DNA of 43,011 bases, from positions 1 through 43,011 of the forward strand of contig NZ_AULM01000032.1 in assembly GCF_000422285.1 (NCBI RefSeq). The letters are read 5' to 3'. The translations under genes and the position numbers were made by a program. Origin of the DNA: Desulfatiglans anilini DSM 4660. Lineage in GTDB: Bacteria; Desulfobacterota; DSM-4660; Desulfatiglandales; Desulfatiglandaceae. The notes beneath the pieces are model-generated. The model had not been told where the DNA came from, did not search any database, and saw only the letters and a program-made list of their open reading frames with translations. Below, piece after piece: positions 2,485 to 39,645 of this stretch. Each line of letters opens with the position of its first letter. The first letter of the stretch is position 1.

Positions 2485-5400
2485 ATGACGGAGAATCAGG
2501 CAAAAAAGGTATCGGGATCGGTCATGGTGGTGGGGGGCGGCATCGCCGGGATGCAGTCCGCCCTCGACCTCGCCAACTCGGGGTACTACGTCTACCTGGT
2601 GGAGAAATCGTCCGCCATCGGCGGGCTCATGTCCCAGCTGGACAAGACCTTCCCCACCAACGACTGTGCCATGTGAGTGATCTCACCGAAACTGGTCGAG
2701 GTCGGCCGGCACCTGAACATCGAGTTGTTGACGAACGCTGAACTGATGGACCTCGAAGGGGACGAGGGTCTGTTCCAGGCCCGCGTGAAGCTGGAGCCCC
2801 GTTACGTGGACCTCTCGAAGTGCACGAGCTGCGGCGAGTGCACCAAGGTCTGCCCGATCGAACTCGACGACGAGTACAACCTCGGGCTCAGCAAACGCAA
2901 AGCCACCTACAAGAAATACCCCCAGGCCATCCCGGGCGGCTATGCCATCAGCAAACGCGGCACCGCGCCCTGCAAGGCCACCTGCCCGGCACACGTCAGC
3001 ATCCAGGGCTACATCGCCCTCATCAACCAGGGGAAATACCGCGAGGCGCTCGAGCTCTTCATGGAGGCGCACCCCTTCCCCGCGGTCTGCGGGCGCGTTT
3101 GCCACCATCCCTGCGAGGGGATCTGTACGCGGGGGGACGTGGACGAACCGATCTCCATCCAGTACCTTCACCGGTTCCTCGCCGATGTCGACCGGAGCGG
3201 CGATGAGCCGTATGTGCCGGCGGTCCCCGAGGAGAAGCGGGACGAAAAGGTGGCGGTCATCGGAGCCGGCCCGGCCGGCCTGGCGGCGGCCTATTTCCTG
3301 GCGCTGAAGGGGTACACCGTCACGGTCTTCGAAAAGCTCCCGGTGGCGGGCGGCATGATGGCCGTCGGCATCCCGGCCTACCGGCTGCCGCGCGACATCC
3401 TGGCGCGGGAGATTGGCATCGTCGAGGCCATGGGGGTCGAGATCCGGACCGGGGTCACCTTCGGCGAGGACGTCACGCTCGAAGGGCTCAAGGCCGACGG
3501 GTACAAGGCCGTTTTCATCGGAACGGGCCTGCACCTGAGCCGCGGGCTGAACGTGCCCGGCGAGGACCTCCCCGGTGTACTGAAAGGCGTCGACTTCCTG
3601 CGTGACGCGGCGCTCGAACGGCCGGTCGCGGTGGGCGAGCGCGTCGTCGTGGTCGGGGGCGGCAACGTGGCCGTGGACGTGGCCCTGACGGCCCTCCGCG
3701 AGGGCGGGAAGGATGTCACGCTCGTCTGCCTCGAGAAGCGCGAGGAGATGCCCGCCTGGGACTACGAGATCGAAGAGGCGCTCGAGGAGGGGATCAAGAT
3801 CGTCAACAGCCTCGGACCCCGCGCCTTCATCGAGAAGGACGGGCGGCTCGCCGGGCTCGAGTTCAAGCGCTGCACCGCCGTCTTCGACGAAAAGGGCGCC
3901 TTCCGGCCGCAGTACGACGAAGCGGATCTGACCACCTTCGAGGCCGACACGGTCATCGTGGCCATCGGCCAGGCGGCGGACCTCTCCTACGCCGAGAAGG
4001 AAGGGATCACGGTCGGCGCGCGCGGGGGCCTCACCGCCGACCCGGTGACGCTTCAGACGCCGACCCCGTGGGTCTTTGCCGGCGGCGACGTCTTCTACGG
4101 CCCGAAATCCGTCGTCGAGGCGGTCGAGTGCGGCAAAACCGCGGCCGAGAGCATCGACCGGTATCTGAACAACGTCGACCTCCGCGAGGGGCGCGAAAAG
4201 GACTGGTCCTACGAGAAGCCCGATGCCAAGGGGGAACCCTTCCGCCCGCGGGTCGAGATGCGCCACCTGCCCGTCCAAGAGCGGCGCGGGAACTTCCAGG
4301 AGACCAACCTCGGCTTCAGCGAGGAGGAGGTCCGGGAGGAGGCCCAGCGCTGCCTCAAGTGCGGGATCTGCAGCGAGTGCTACCAGTGCGTGAAGGCGTG
4401 CCTCGCCCAGGCGATCGACCACGAGCAGAAGGCCCTCGAGCGGGAGATCACCGTCGGCTCCGTGATCCTCTGCCCCGGCAACGACATGTTCGACCCCTCC
4501 CCTTACGAAGAGCTCTACCACTACCAATCGCACCCGAACATCCTCACGAGCGGCGAGTTCGAGCGGATCCTGAGCGCCTCCGGACCGACAATGGGCCACC
4601 TCCAGCGGCCGTCGGACCAGAAGGAGCCCCGGAAGATCGCCTGGCTCCAGTGCGTGGGCTCGCGCGACCCGCACACCTGCGGGAACGGCTACTGCTCGGC
4701 CGTCTGCTGCATGTACGCCATCAAGGAGGCCGTGATCGCCAAGGACCACAGCAAGGAAGAACTCGACACGGCGATCTTCTTCATGGACATGCGCACCTAC
4801 GGGAAGGACTACGAGAAGTACTACAACCGGGCGGAGCATGAGCATGGCGTCCGGTTCGTGCGCTCCCGCGTCCACAGCATCAGCCCGATCCCGGAGAGCG
4901 ATGACCTCCAGCTCGAGTACTCGGACGAAAACGGCGTCATCCAAGGAGAAGCCTTCGACATGGTTGTCCTGTCGGTCGGCCTCCAGATCAACGCCGAGAC
5001 CGTGCGCCTGGCCGAGCGGGTCGGGGTCGACCTCGACCGCTACCACTTCGCCGCCACCGAGCCCTTCAGGCCCGTCAGCACCTCGCGGCCGGGGGTCTAT
5101 GCCTGCGGCATCTTCCAGGGCCCCAAGGACATCCCCACCTCGGTCGTCGAGGCGAGCGCGGCGGCCTGCGCGGCCGGTTCCAAGCTCGATGCCGCGCGGT
5201 GGCTCGAGACGAAGGTCTTGGAGATCCCGGACGAGATCGACGTGGCCGGACAGGAGCCGCGCATCGGCGTCTTCGTCTGCAACTGCGGGATCAACATCGC
5301 CGGCGTGGTGGACGTGCCGGCGGTGACCGAGTACGCGGCGGGGCTTCCGCACGTGGCCTTTGCCGACAACAATCTCTTCACCTGCTCCCAGGACACCCAG

Positions 5401-7106: not shown

Positions 7107-7532
7107 ATGGAACAGTTCGAACCGATCATCGTCGCATTCGCCTGCAACTTCTGAGGGTACACCGCCGCGGACCTGGCAGGTTCGATGAGGCTTCAGTACC
7201 CTGGGACGATCCGCATCATCCGGGTCCCCTGCACCGGCAAGGTGGACATCATCCACATGCTGCACGCCTTCGAGAAGGGCGCCGACGGCGTTTACATCGT
7301 CGGGTGCATGGAGGGGGACTGCCGTTTCATCCGCGGGAACCTTCGGGCCCGGCGGCGGGTGGAGGCGGCGCAGAAGATCCTGGACGCCGTCGGGATCGGC
7401 GGAGAGAGGCTGCAGATGTACAACCTGTCTTCCGGTGAGGGGCCCCGCTTCGCGGAGATCGCCACCGAGATGACGGAAAAGATCAAGGCCATCGGCCCCA
7501 ATCCTATCAAGCTCGCCAAAAAGGCCGCCTGA
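7107..7532 (+). CDS. mvhD: selenocysteine-containing MvhD/FlpD-type electron-transfer subunit
   Basis: This is a 141-residue iron-sulfur protein of the MvhD/FlpD/FrhD family, which passes electrons between a donor enzyme and HdrA. The ATG at 7107 follows GAGGGG. An in-frame TGA at 7152-7154 is read as Sec16 in CNFUGYTAADLAG; family members have CNxCxYxGAD there, so U replaces a cluster-ligand Cys. The same frame continues uninterrupted with the other conserved cysteines: C42 (RVPCTGKVD), C67 and C72 (VGCMEGDC). Without recoding, translation would give a 15-residue peptide. It lies 182 bases after hdrA and 256 bases before metV, all on the same strand. A functional HdrA-MvhD-MetVF complex is the likely context. 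The assignment is firm; the Sec reading is supported by the C-to-U position and by the Sec in the adjacent HdrA. Confidence 0.9.
7171..7181 (+). promoter_or_regulatory. candidate SECIS hairpin for MvhD Sec16
   Basis: ACCT (7171-7174) pairs with AGGT (7178-7181) around a GGC loop about 20 bases after the TGA, with a possible G-U extension. An alternative fold pairs GCC with GGC around a GCGGACCU loop. The loop position is right for a bacterial SECIS, but the small loop is not typical and the exact fold is uncertain. Confidence 0.4.
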
Positions 7533-35143: not shown

Positions 35144-36094
35144 TCAGGCGACATACCCAGAAAGGCGCCTGATCTCGTCTTCGGCCTCCGCCATGATCTC
35201 ATCAAGCAGTTCCGCAATCGGACGTATACGCTTGACCAGTCCGGCGACCTGCCCCATCATCACCGATCCCCACTCCATATCGCCCGAAACCGCGGCCTTC
35301 CGGAGGGACCCAATGGTGAAGCCGTCGATCTCGTGCTTGTCCTTCCCCTCCATCTCCATCTGAAGGACCCTTTGCACCAACTGGTTCTTGAGGACCCGGA
35401 ACTGGAGCCCCGTGGTCCTGCCCGTGACCGCCGTATCCGAATCGACAGCCTGGCACACGGCCTGCTTGTAGTTCTTGTGGAGGGTGGCCTCCCGGGTCGC
35501 CAGAAACCGGGTTCCCATCTGTATCCCTTCGGCCCCGAGGGCCAGCGCTGCAACCAGTCCCCTCCCGTCGGCGATCCCCCCCGCCGCGACCAGGGGCAAG
35601 TCGGTTGCCTGGGCCGCTTCGCGGACCAGCACCAACGTGGAGATCTCGGAAGGGCTGATGTTTCCGCCCCCTTCCATGCCCATGGCGATGATGCCGTCCA
35701 CCCCGGCCTCGTTGCACCGTTTGATCATCTCGAGGGTGAACGCGACCTGGAATATCCTGATTCCGGCAGCCTTGAAACGCTCCGTGTACTGGACAGGATC
35801 CCCGGCCGAAGAGACGACGACCGGGACCCGCTCTTCGATCGCAATTTCGACCGCCTTCTTGGAAGACGGAAGCCTCAACGGAATGTTCACTGCAAAGGGG
35901 AGTACAGTGGCCTCTCTGATCTTCCGTATGTGATCGACCAGTTCCTCGGGTTCCATGGTAGCGGCGGCGATCGTCCCCAATCCGCCGGCCTTCGAAACAG
36001 CGGCAGCCATTTCCCAACCCGTAATCCACGCCATCCCTCCCTGCAGGATGGGATAGCGAATTCCCAAAACATCACTCACTCTCGTCTTCAACAT
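35144..36094 (-). CDS. nitronate monooxygenase / FabK-type flavoprotein
   Basis: A 316-residue FMN-dependent TIM-barrel enzyme of the nitronate monooxygenase / 2-nitropropane dioxygenase family, which includes FabK enoyl-ACP reductases. Signature segments are YPILQGGMAWI near the N-terminus, GGLGTIAAATM, MGMEGGGN (the family GxExGGH-like active-site block, with Asn replacing the usual His), VAAGGIADGRG and GAEGIQMGTRF (FMN phosphate binding). In NMO proper the block carries a catalytic His, so the His-to-Asn change suggests a non-classical activity. The start at 36094 is chosen by family alignment; the frame stays open upstream to 36208 without family homology. It is monocistronic. Confidence 0.85.
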   Translation of the reverse strand: MLKTRVSDVLGIRYPILQGGMAWITGWEMAAAVSKAGGLGTIAAATMEPEELVDHIRKIREATVLPFAVNIPLRLPSSKKAVEIAIEERVPVVVSSAGDPVQYTERFKAAGIRIFQVAFTLEMIKRCNEAGVDGIIAMGMEGGGNISPSEISTLVLVREAAQATDLPLVAAGGIADGRGLVAALALGAEGIQMGTRFLATREATLHKNYKQAVCQAVDSDTAVTGRTTGLQFRVLKNQLVQRVLQMEMEGKDKHEIDGFTIGSLRKAAVSGDMEWGSVMMGQVAGLVKRIRPIAELLDEIMAEAEDEIRRLSGYVA

Positions 36095-36706: not shown

Positions 36707-37051
36707 ATGAAGACATTGATCAAGGTGATGAAAGCCCTATCCGACCCGAACCGGGTCAAGATCGTCAAGCTTTTGCAGCACCGGGTCATGTGCGTATGCG
36801 AACTTCGGGTCGCGCTGAACCTGGCGCAGTCGACTGTCAGCAAACACTTGCGGATCCTGGAGGAGGCGGACTTGGTCACATGGAGCAAGGACGGGCTGTG
36901 GGTCAATTACCGTCTGCTCGATGAAACACCGAACCCCTTTGCAAGCCGCATGCTCCGGAATCTCGAACAGTGGCTGGAAGAAGATCCTGAAATCACGGAG
37001 TTGATTACGCGGCTGCCGGAAATCCGCAGGGAAAACATCTGCGGCGTGTGA
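36707..37051 (+). CDS. arsR: ArsR/SmtB family metalloregulator
   Basis: A 114-residue winged-helix repressor. ALSDPNRVKIVKLL opens the domain. Cys29 and Cys31 in the MCVCEL motif match the classical ELCVCDL arsenic-sensing site of helix alpha-3, and AQSTVSKHLRILEEADLV is the recognition helix. A further Cys lies near the C-terminus (ENICGV) and could be a third ligand. The protein should repress the operon until trivalent arsenic (or antimony, or organoarsenic) binds. It is the first gene of the operon, 116 bases before the permease. Confidence 0.93.
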   Translation: MKTLIKVMKALSDPNRVKIVKLLQHRVMCVCELRVALNLAQSTVSKHLRILEEADLVTWSKDGLWVNYRLLDETPNPFASRMLRNLEQWLEEDPEITELITRLPEIRRENICGV

Positions 37052-37166: not shown

Positions 37167-38339
37167 ATGAAAGAGCGCACCAAGTTCCTGTTGATCATCA
37201 GCACTTTCCTGGCCGCCTATTACGTGCCATGGGGGCATCCCATCATCCGGCAATCCGGGCTCGAGGCGTTCATGATGCTGCAGGAGTATGCCCGCGAGCA
37301 TGTCCTCACCTGCCTCATTCCAGCCTTCTTCATTGCCGGGGCCATCGCGGTCTTCGTCTCGCAGGCCTCCGTGCTCAAATATTTCGGCGCACAGGCCAGC
37401 AAGATCCTCTCCTACTCCGTAGCCTCCGTGTCGGGGACCATCCTGGCCGTCTGCTCCTGCACGGTCCTGCCGCTTTTCGCCGGTATCTACACGCGGGGCG
37501 CAGGCATCGGCCCGGCCACCGCCTTTCTCTATTCCGGGCCCGCTATCAACGTCCTCGCCATTACGCTGACCGCAAAGATCCTGGGCTGGCAGCTCGGGCT
37601 GGCCCGGGCCATAGGTGCTGTGCTCTTCGCGGTAATCACCGGGCTGCTGATGGCCCTCATCTTCCGGAAAGATGATGCCGCCCGCGCCACCGGGCAGATC
37701 TTCCTCCCTGACCCCGAAGCGAAGGAACGGACCCTGCTCCAGGATGCGCTCTACATCGGGACCATGGTGCTGATCCTCGTTTTCGCGGCCTTTGCCAGGC
37801 CGGCCCCCGGATCGACAGGGCTTTGGCCCGCCCTCTTCGCCGCCAAATGGACCATCACGATCGGGCTGCTCGTCGTCCTCGGCCTCATGCTGAAGTTCTG
37901 GTTCACGCGCGCCGAGTGCAGGAACTGGGTGGAAGCCACCTGGGGCTTCATGAAGCAGATCTTCCCCCTGCTCGCCGGCGGAGTCCTCGTCGCGGGCTTT
38001 ATGCTGGGACGGCCCGGCCACCCCGCACTCATCCCTGAACAGTGGATCCAGACGCTCCTCGGCGGCAACTCGATCTCGGCCAATCTCATCGCCTCGGTCG
38101 CAGGGGCCCTCATGTACTTTGCGACCCTCACGGAGGTGCCGATCCTCCAAGGGCTCCTCGGGGCCGGGATGGGCAAAGGCCCCGCACTGGCGCTGCTCCT
38201 GGCCGGACCGGCGCTCTCCCTCCCCAACATGCTGGTCATCGGCAGCGTGATGGGCGTGCGAAAAACGGCCGTCTTTTGCCTTATCATTGTGGTCATGTCG
38301 ACCATCGCCGGCCTGCTCTTCGGCACGCTGGCCGGATGA
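37167..38339 (+). CDS. arsP: ArsP-type permease (DUF318)
   Basis: A 390-residue inner-membrane protein with about nine to ten transmembrane helices. It belongs to the permease family that includes ArsP, an exporter of trivalent organoarsenicals. The family motif AVCSCTVLPLFAGIYTRGAG with two Cys, followed by FLYSGPAINVLAI, is present and repeated in diverged form in the second half (TLTEVPILQGLLGAGMGKG, LLAGPALSLPNML). A polar loop (about residues 170-195) separates the halves. The ATG at 37167 has GAGGAC upstream. Placement after an arsenic-type ArsR supports an arsenic-related substrate, though the family also contains permeases of other or unknown substrate. Confidence 0.87.
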   Translation: MKERTKFLLIISTFLAAYYVPWGHPIIRQSGLEAFMMLQEYAREHVLTCLIPAFFIAGAIAVFVSQASVLKYFGAQASKILSYSVASVSGTILAVCSCTVLPLFAGIYTRGAGIGPATAFLYSGPAINVLAITLTAKILGWQLGLARAIGAVLFAVITGLLMALIFRKDDAARATGQIFLPDPEAKERTLLQDALYIGTMVLILVFAAFARPAPGSTGLWPALFAAKWTITIGLLVVLGLMLKFWFTRAECRNWVEATWGFMKQIFPLLAGGVLVAGFMLGRPGHPALIPEQWIQTLLGGNSISANLIASVAGALMYFATLTEVPILQGLLGAGMGKGPALALLLAGPALSLPNMLVIGSVMGVRKTAVFCLIIVVMSTIAGLLFGTLAG

Positions 38340-38364: not shown

Positions 38365-38757
38365 ATGAAGCGCCTCGACATCGAGTGGCGCCATCTCCTG
38401 AAAGGCGGCAGGACGTGCGAGCGCTGCTCCGACACCGGGGAGGCGGTCCACGCCGCCTACCGTGCGCTCGCCGCTGAACTGGAGCCCCGCGGATGGTGCG
38501 TGACACTGCGCGAAACCCCCCTGACGGAGGAGGACATCGCCGAGTCCAACACCATCCTTCTGAACGGCCAGCCGCTCGAACTGCTGCTGCCGGGCGCACA
38601 CAGCGCCTCGAACTGCTGCACATCCTGCGGCGACCTGCTGGGGATGCCCGCCATGTGCAGGACCATCGTGCACGGCGGCCGGATTTACGAAGCGATCCCC
38701 GGAGCCCTGATCATCGAAGCAGCGCATCGAATCGTTCAACAGACCCTTGCAGATTGA
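38365..38757 (+). CDS. DUF2703 domain protein
   Basis: A 130-residue cytosolic protein of the DUF2703 family, whose biochemical role is not established. The ATG follows AGGAGG. Cysteine pairs are Cys18 and Cys21 (GGRTCERCSDTG) and a later cluster (SNCCTSCGD, then MCRTIV), compatible with metal, arsenic or redox-disulfide chemistry. The middle resembles a thioredoxin-like strand pattern (NTILLNGQPLE). It lies 25 bases after the permease gene and about 20 bases before the thioredoxin gene. Members of this family tend to be found next to ArsP-type permeases and small thioredoxins, which I recall rather than have checked. Confidence 0.8.
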   Translation: MKRLDIEWRHLLKGGRTCERCSDTGEAVHAAYRALAAELEPRGWCVTLRETPLTEEDIAESNTILLNGQPLELLLPGAHSASNCCTSCGDLLGMPAMCRTIVHGGRIYEAIPGALIIEAAHRIVQQTLAD

Positions 38758-38776: not shown

Positions 38777-39010
38777 ATGGAAATCAAAGTCCTGGGCCCA
38801 GGCTGCCCGAAATGCCGCCAGACGGAAGAAATCGTCCAACAGGCGATTGAGGAAGCCGGCGTCCCCGCTCAAATCGAAAAGGTCACCGACGCCATGAAGA
38901 TCGCCCGCTACGGCGTCTTTGTCACACCGGCTGTCGTCGTGGACGGTGAAGTGAAATCGGTCGGCAAGATCCCCAGCAAAGAGGACGTCAAGTCCTGGAT
39001 CAAAAAATGA
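38777..39010 (+). CDS. small thioredoxin-like protein (CPKC)
   Basis: A 77-residue protein of the small thioredoxin/glutaredoxin-like family (redox-active disulfide protein type). The active site CPKC spans residues 10-13 (GPGCPKC), and the cis-Pro segment is FVTPAVVVDGEV. The ATG at 38777 is strongly marked by AAGGAGG. In this operon it could reduce the DUF2703 protein, the permease cysteines, or the adjacent candidate selenoprotein. It is complete, and all redox residues are Cys rather than Sec. Confidence 0.92.
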   Translation: MEIKVLGPGCPKCRQTEEIVQQAIEEAGVPAQIEKVTDAMKIARYGVFVTPAVVVDGEVKSVGKIPSKEDVKSWIKK

Positions 39011-39029
39011 ATCGGAAAGAGGTGTGATC

Positions 39030-39389
39030 ATGGGTCGACAAGATGATTTTCCGCAGAACAAGGATATCCTGCCGACGCAGAATACGACGTCTGCCTCACA
39101 TCATGATGAGAATGGCTGAGGGGACGGGTGAATCGTTCCCCAACCGGCAGTTGGCCGGCGCATCCTCAAGTTCCCCGATGACACCCAGGTCGGCGTCGTG
39201 GGCCTGGACGCGATCATGGCCGACCTCCTTGCGCAAGGATTCGAGCCCAGCGAGCGGGTCGCCGAGCAGATCATGGAAAGGCTCGAAAAGGAAAAGAACT
39301 ACATCCCCACCGCCGAACGCGCGCGCAGGGACTACGCCTACGCCCTGCTGAAGGAATACCGAAAATATGTCAAGGACCGCAAAGGCTGA
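39030..39389 (+). CDS. candidate double-selenocysteine small protein (UxxxU)
   Basis: A continuous frame of 119 residues when two in-frame TGA codons (39117-39119 and 39129-39131) are read as Sec30 and Sec34 (NGUGDGUIV). The ATG at 39030 has GAGG seven bases upstream, only 19 bases after the thioredoxin stop. Residues 1-29 are polar and Asn/Asp/His-rich. After the UGAs comes a well-formed domain (RRILKFPDDTQVGVVGLDA, IMADLLAQGFEPSERVAEQI), ending in a helical Lys/Arg/Tyr-rich tail. No frameshift is needed, and hairpins follow the UGAs. Alternatives are a pseudogene with two nonsense mutations, or translation from GTG 39198, which lacks a ribosome binding site and would remove half the domain. 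Sec use by the organism (HdrA, MvhD) makes recoding plausible. The family is not recognised; a Cys-rich CxxxC segment in relatives would settle it. Confidence 0.65.
39120..39158 (+). promoter_or_regulatory. tandem candidate SECIS hairpins after the double UGA
   Basis: Hairpin 1 pairs 39120-39127 with 39133-39141 (GGGGA against TTCCCC, with one bulged U) and encloses the second UGA. Hairpin 2 is a perfect stem CCGGC (39144-39148) / GCCGG (39154-39158) with loop AGTTG; the loop lies 17 bases after the second UGA and 29 after the first. Both distances fit bacterial SECIS elements, so hairpin 2 could serve both codons. Folded by eye. Confidence 0.5.
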
Positions 39390-39465: not shown

Positions 39466-39645
39466 TTGAGTGAAATCCGGAAGGAAGACAGGGGCCTGAT
39501 GGCGCCCTGCGGCATCATCTGCTCGGGATGCGACATGCAGCCGGGCGAAAGCCTCGAGGCCGGCGGATTTCTTCTCAGCGCAACCCCGTGTAGAAGCGTT
39601 GCAGCCTCTGGACCGGCACACCGGCCAGAAAGCCCGCGATCATGA
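39466..39645 (+). pseudogene. truncated DUF3795-type protein, 5' fragment
   Basis: A frame from TTG 39466, preceded by GGAG with good spacing, encodes SEIRKEDRGLMAPCGIICSG and then CDMQPGE. This resembles the N-terminus of DUF3795 proteins (APCGxxCxxCP). After about 35 residues the family-like sequence ends, and the frame enters the 3' end of the oppositely oriented glycosyltransferase gene (stop at 39575), closing at 39645. I read it as the start of a Cys-rich zinc-finger-like gene whose rest was lost at a junction around 39550-39575. The fragment is short, so the family call is tentative. Confidence 0.5.

Follow-up and report, generated by a model that had tools for sequence, protein, structure and literature searches.

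A putative two-selenocysteine protein family with ties to arsenic gene clusters in Desulfatiglans anilini and related bacteria

Introduction

A 43,011-nucleotide stretch of the Desulfatiglans anilini DSM 4660 genome, here called the window, contains a short gene with two in-frame TGA codons, four codons apart, near its start. The question raised by this locus is whether these codons are stops or are read as selenocysteine (Sec), and, if the latter, what a small protein with a Sec pair might do. The initial annotation, made from the sequence alone, reported an ATG at 39030, preceded by a ribosome-binding site, as the start of a 119-codon frame interrupted by TGA at codons 30 and 34, and took the product for a candidate two-Sec selenoprotein of no recognized family. 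Such a gene is easily missed. Discovery of bacterial selenoproteins mostly relies on Cys homologues (PMC12013277, PMC13188914); therefore, families that exist only in the Sec form are invisible to these methods.

Results

A frame with two UGA codons is conserved in 44 homologues

The start, ribosome-binding site, frame, and both TGA positions were confirmed. The features are as follows:

39016..39024 (+), ribosome-binding site AAAGAGGTG, 5 nt ahead of the ATG at 39030
39030..39389 (+), predicted double-selenoprotein gene, 119 amino acids, with its TGA stop at 39387-39389; it has homologues (profile match 9.2e-47)
39117..39119 (+), in-frame TGA, UGA codon 30 (UGA1), the putative first Sec, preceded by a conserved Gly
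39129..39131 (+), in-frame TGA, UGA codon 34 (UGA2), the putative second Sec

The 119-residue translation, with U for Sec, reads MGRQDDFPQNKDILPTQNTTSASHHDENGUGDGUIVPQPAVGRRILKFPDDTQVGVVGLDAIMADLLAQGFEPSERVAEQIMERLEKEKNYIPTAERARRDYAYALLKEYRKYVKDRKG. From UGA2 to the folded domain the gene has no ATG, GTG, or TTG; the earliest is a GTG at 39198, which starts an open reading frame downstream of both UGAs. The gene was overlooked by gene finders because its two putative Sec residues are encoded by "stop" codons. Right after it, at 39495-39600 (+), a frame (LMAPCGIICSGCDMQPGESLEAGG) resembles the start of a Cys-rich protein and is truncated.

Searching the translated protein against 197 related genomes and a species-level contig collection, we found full-length relatives with in-frame TGAs. 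A profile (A1) built from the first 23 members and run on 395 genomes of the phylum identified two-TGA members in 32 of them, meaning that about 8% of the phylum's sampled genomes carry the family. After duplicate removal there are 44 distinct two-TGA proteins, drawn from database MAGs as well as from about ten family-level groups within one phylum, and relatives share 32-87% identity with the window protein. All carry both TGAs in the same N-terminal tail, where the spacing is UxxU in 24 members, UxxxU in 17, and UxxxxU in 3; with a single exception, the residue before the first U is Gly. Within the genus, both TGAs are retained at 86% identity, and in a 45th member (L076/L090) only the second site is TGA, the first being TTA (Leu). 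One occurrence (L035, from a record labelled Nitrospiraceae) stands alone in its phylum, where 245 genomes were searched with no match beyond its own genome, and may therefore reflect transfer or a binning error. Plasmid records and viral contigs gave no relatives at the sensitivities used. In one genome, a family-domain fragment and the tRNA-Sec gene lie less than 1 kb apart (L091; G396 C128:34912-35097 and 35888-35979).

Codon usage at the two sites differs from that at real stops. All 88 in-frame sites of the 44 members are TGA, with no TAA or TAG, whereas the same genes end in TAA (19), TGA (17, including the window gene), or TAG (7), one member running off its contig. The start codon is ATG in all 44, mostly with a purine-rich, Shine-Dalgarno-like stretch upstream, and 28 of the 44 lack any start codon from UGA2 to the domain. 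Between close pairs, differences at codon positions 1, 2, and 3 number 21, 11, and 50 before UGA1; 3, 7, and 41 in the UGA region; and 122, 96, and 316 after it. Changes are mainly at third positions in all three segments, and the entire frame is therefore under protein selection. The membership test of an in-frame UGA conserved across homologues in an otherwise intact frame is met, and the outcome that would have refuted the initial annotation, homologues aligning only after position 39150, did not occur.

A SECIS-like hairpin lies within reach of both UGA codons

Two hairpins at SECIS-like distances had been proposed downstream of the UGA codons, and this held in part:

39144..39158 (+), bacterial SECIS-like hairpin CCGGC-AGUUG-GCCGG, whose apical loop begins 17 nt past UGA2 and 29 nt past UGA1
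39120..39140 (+), second predicted hairpin of 8 bp with UGA2 in its loop

The first is the conserved SECIS-like element. The second is a folding prediction made here and in some relatives but not kept in all members; it begins right after UGA1 and carries UGA2 in its loop only 8 nt after UGA1.

The bacterial SECIS (bSECIS) model calls for a stem of 4-16 bp and a loop of 3-9 nt that lies 16-37 nt after the UGA and has a G within its first two positions (PMC13188914), a distance also given in PMC10778597; the membership test used here further requires an MFE of at most -7.5. With its 5-bp stem, AGUUG loop, distances of 17 and 29 nt, and an MFE of -9.2 to -10.5 kcal/mol over the UGA2 stretch, the window hairpin meets these criteria. 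Since the loop stands at a permitted distance with a permitted G, a single hairpin fits the model's distance and loop requirements for UGA1 and UGA2 alike. Throughout the family the apical loop has five nucleotides, nearly always AGUU[A/G], and begins 17, 20, or 23 nt from UGA2 (26, 17, and 1 members) and 26, 29, or 32 nt from UGA1 (6, 34, and 4 members). A strict perfect-stem version of the bSECIS test is passed for UGA2 by 36 of 44 members and for UGA1 by 35 of 44, compared with 11% of background TGAs. A strict motif, defined by a stem of at least four pairs and an AGUU[A/G] loop placed 17 or 20 nt downstream of a TGA, was applied to 28,856 TGAs of the loci and picked out family members only and no other TGA.

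The stem also covaries. In an ungapped alignment of the 44 sequences, 84.7% of cells pair, and the covariation score is 0.216 versus 0.129 for shuffled alignments (0 of 500 as high) and at most 0.116 in slid registers. The pair adjoining the innermost one is A-U in 19 members and G-C in 16, and in the protein these A-U/G-C changes couple Thr/Ser to Ala/Gly. The loop's Val is encoded by GTT in 39 of 41 members, compared with 83 of the 251 other Val codons of the same genes (33%). Three members (L034, L048, and L110) have GGT or GGC in place of the loop GTT, exchanging Val for Gly and giving a G-G loop that the bSECIS model permits; at this position the amino acid seems to follow the RNA. Free-energy z-scores against codon-preserving shuffles are modest (means of -0.9 and -1.2), and an Rfam scan with E values up to 10 returned nothing of the SECIS type. 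The SECIS argument thus rests on the constant register, the loop sequence, and covariation, and folding energies lend it little.

Sec decoding is expected in the genome

The window's own genome encodes a tRNA-Sec (71.7 bits, C5:146192-146285) and SelB (387.5 bits), so the test for Sec machinery is met. A tRNA-Sec scoring 66-81 bits is present in 34 of 38 carrier genomes, a strong match being absent from four carrier MAGs (G012, G130, G372, and G379). SelB occurs in nearly every sampled genome, and its co-occurrence with the family therefore does not discriminate; it shows only that a requirement is fulfilled. The initial annotation's statement that TGA replaces conserved Cys in HdrA and MvhD elsewhere in the window held: an in-frame TGA at 2674-2676 (+) lies in the CxxU context CAMU of an HdrA-like protein, and another at 7152-7154 (+) in the CxxU context CNFU of MvhD, where the Pfam FlpD match (3.2e-48) reads across the TGA. 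Both belong to known selenoprotein families and serve as positive controls showing that this genome uses Sec.

The two-Sec selenoprotein without a recognized family is thus well supported by TGAs in 44 members, a covarying hairpin, tRNA-Sec with SelB, and the absence of a library match. There is no protein-level proof, and Sec in the protein is inferred; even so, Sec decoding at the window locus is very likely. We are somewhat less sure of the inference that both UGA sites are decoded equally.

No Cys/Cys homologue in the genomes searched and no match to a described selenoprotein

The check proposed at the outset, a search for CxxxC homologues, had a different outcome. No homologue with Cys at both sites was detected by sequence or profile in roughly 700 genomes, to which any "Sec only" claim is confined. 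What turned up instead were seven diverged, TGA-free relatives (L055, L087, L065, L066, L097, L092, and L106) with a vicinal CC or CPC in the tail, e.g., MSAQIKQGMGPCCTPLIKGYRLLTFPDG, some of them near a two-Sec gene (on the same contig in G301, G232, and G179). We regard them as an undescribed group of Cys paralogues. The lack of a Cys/Cys homologue counts against the Sec reading, as the usual support is missing. According to the deep-Sep paper, every known selenoprotein seems to have Cys homologues, and selenoproteins without them may escape its method (PMC12013277); this would explain why the family has been overlooked so far.

A Pfam and NCBIfam 20.0 scan of all 44 members gave no credible match. 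None of the 119 prokaryotic selenoprotein families in a 2026 inventory has this domain or a UxxxU motif, its UxxU entries being unrelated (PMC13188914), and we found no paper on a UxxxU motif in the literature searched. Closest in kind are the predicted UxxU proteins of that inventory, namely, the metal-binding (seleno)protein NF041115, the Prx-like thiol:disulfide oxidoreductase PF00578, and the FmdB-type regulator TIGR02605, which likewise have two close Sec residues from in-frame UGAs and for some of which a metal-binding or redox role is proposed (PMC13188914). They differ in having another domain and no significant sequence match to the family, whose spacing varies from 2 to 4. The NF041115 cutoff was not reached: one of the 44 members matched at E = 0.035, likely through the motif itself, and the window protein did not match. 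MbdU (NF045648), Sao, Tso, and ArsM-fusion selenoproteins are similar as multi-Sec or metal/arsenic-cluster selenoproteins (PMC13188914), but no NCBIfam model credibly matches the family. Selenoproteins as such are known; this family is a new one, not described before.

Arsenic genes and thioredoxin fusions accompany the family

The gene comes after four others on the same strand, in the order ArsR, ArsP_1, DUF2703, thioredoxin, selenoprotein, with the thioredoxin gene ending 19 nt upstream of it:

36707..37051 (+), ArsR-family metalloregulator
37167..38339 (+), ArsP_1-type permease (PF03773, 1.2e-76)
38365..38757 (+), DUF2703 protein of the same gene cluster (PF10865, 2e-36)
38777..39010 (+), MTH895/ArsE-type thioredoxin with CPKC (PF13192, 2.1e-29; TIGR00412, 105 bits)
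39153..39386 (+), C-terminal domain of the selenoprotein, about residues 42-119, predicted to form a beta hairpin with three helices and present also in fusions with ArsE-type thioredoxins

Across the window and the 43 other loci, we counted ACR3 arsenite efflux genes at 23 (one example matching TIGR00832 at 458 bits), ArsP_1 at 12, an ArsR-type regulator at 12, ArsM at 5, and ArsC at 5. At least 29 of the 44 loci have ACR3, ArsP, ArsC, or ArsM nearby, counting the window's own ArsP, and about a third have no arsenic gene in the examined stretch, some of these being cut by contig ends. The earlier assignment to a thioredoxin-containing arsenic operon holds in this sense only: the link to arsenic is one of neighborhood.

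In the structure model, residues 1-33 are disordered (pLDDT mostly under 50), and this tail holds both Sec residues or their edge; the confident part, about residues 42-118, is a beta hairpin and three helices. This disordered Sec tail and domain, without a close PDB match, were also what a check for a thioredoxin fold returned. Foldseek found no close chain in the PDB (best E = 1.0, TbiB1, a lasso-peptide leader-binding protein), and VIA-align found no close structure (best Z of 4.4). Neither match was counted toward a known fold.

A homologous domain forms the N-terminal part of ArsE-type thioredoxin fusions, which occur in several of the same arsenic clusters. These MTH895/ArsE-type fusions differ from the family in carrying a CxxC thioredoxin and no Sec tail, and their N-terminal domain has no NCBIfam name. 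The fusions are L002 (in the window's own genome, on C37), L014, L022-L032, L040-L044, L051, and L052. A structure model of a fusion matched only thioredoxins, with MTH895 near the top; its overall pTM of 0.51 is low, and the domain orientation was therefore left uninterpreted. Because the homologous domain is fused elsewhere to an ArsE-type thioredoxin, the free form of which is encoded just upstream of the selenoprotein gene, the domain probably docks to this thioredoxin. Docking is inferred, and we hold it to be likely.

Discussion

Five things are established at the sequence level: the conserved two-UGA frame, the SECIS-like hairpin, the Sec machinery, the arsenic operon setting, and the domain shared with thioredoxin fusions. 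The mechanism proposed from here on is inferred. SelB and tRNA-Sec would decode both UGA codons with the help of a single hairpin just past UGA2. That one SECIS can serve both follows from its loop lying within 16-37 nt of each, and the sharing itself is an inference. The product would be small, probably cytosolic, and would bear two Sec residues (U-x2-4-U) on a flexible N-terminal tail ahead of a compact C-terminal domain. Most likely, the Sec pair would either form a diselenolate that binds As(III) or a comparable soft metalloid, or go through a diselenide cycle in which the thioredoxin is the reductant, and arsenic would be handed on to efflux (ACR3, ArsP) or methylation (ArsM).

Our confidence differs among the parts of this proposal. 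Its core, the double selenoprotein taken apart from the arsenic chemistry, is likely correct, with Sec in the protein still inferred. Its most likely role, again by inference, is that of a two-Sec arsenic-handling or redox partner of the ArsE-type thioredoxin. Whether metalloid binding is the main role could go either way, since this is inferred only from neighborhood and motif. The variable spacing, disordered tail, and vicinal-Cys paralogues favor a chelating pair, the thioredoxin link favors redox exchange, and both may be true. ArsD, a small arsenic-operon metallochaperone that offers paired chalcogen ligands to As(III), is a likeness of this kind; it has a thioredoxin-like fold, whereas the family protein has another predicted fold and no ArsD match in Pfam or NCBIfam. 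A bolder reading is that the family is essentially two-Sec only, with both Sec residues all but obligatory, no known Cys/Cys ortholog, the second floating in a tail of near-constant length, and one SECIS driving two insertions, and that it is a dedicated selenium-based As(III) chelator or metallochaperone with a diselenolate ligand. We lean slightly against this reading as a whole.

Among the alternatives, a redox relay survives best and remains possible. Here a diselenide or seleno-disulfide would move electrons from the thioredoxin to an arsenic- or peroxide-reducing step and hold no metalloid. Sec pairs typify redox centers, the thioredoxin gene lies directly upstream, and the homologous domain is fused to ArsE-type thioredoxins. 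Against it, the disordered tail, the Sec spacing of 2 to 4, and the CC/CPC paralogues resemble a chelating pair more closely than a site of fixed CxxC type. The diselenide-type redox center suggested at the outset is possible, as an inference from sequence alone.

A second alternative is that only UGA2 is efficiently decoded and that UGA1 is a leaky regulatory stop, a short peptide being dominant unless selenium is plentiful. The hairpin is close to UGA2 (17 or 20 nt in nearly all members) and farther from UGA1 (26-32 nt), and one homologue has the sense codon TTA at the first site. However, UGA1 is kept in all 44 two-TGA members, with Gly before it in all but one; of the two UGAs it keeps the steadier distance to the hairpin (29 nt in 34 of 44); and UAA or UAG would do as well if the codon were only a regulatory stop. 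We consider this unlikely.

Even less credible is that the TGAs are true stops, separating a leader peptide from a small protein with its own start and no Sec. TGA does terminate 17 members, including the window gene, and a GTG open reading frame exists at 39198. This very unlikely reading is countered by the lack of a start between UGA2 and the domain in 28 of 44 members, the third-position bias across the UGA region, TGA at 88 of 88 sites, and the covarying SECIS-like hairpin downstream. In principle, two in-frame stops in a small gene may be an artifact, but a sequencing error or decaying pseudogene in one assembly has no result to support it here and is all but ruled out by the same TGA pair in 44 distinct genes from independent assemblies, including a same-genus genome that consists of one contig. 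A chance frame was rejected in view of the 44 distinct members with TGAs at the corresponding place.

Returning to the preferred reading, a double selenoprotein that probably partners with an ArsE-type thioredoxin, the family ties selenium to arsenic detoxification gene clusters in anaerobes. It is also a natural system in which to study how two Sec insertions, 9-15 nt apart, can be directed by one SECIS, and its small protein lends itself to testing whether a Sec pair acts as an As(III) ligand.
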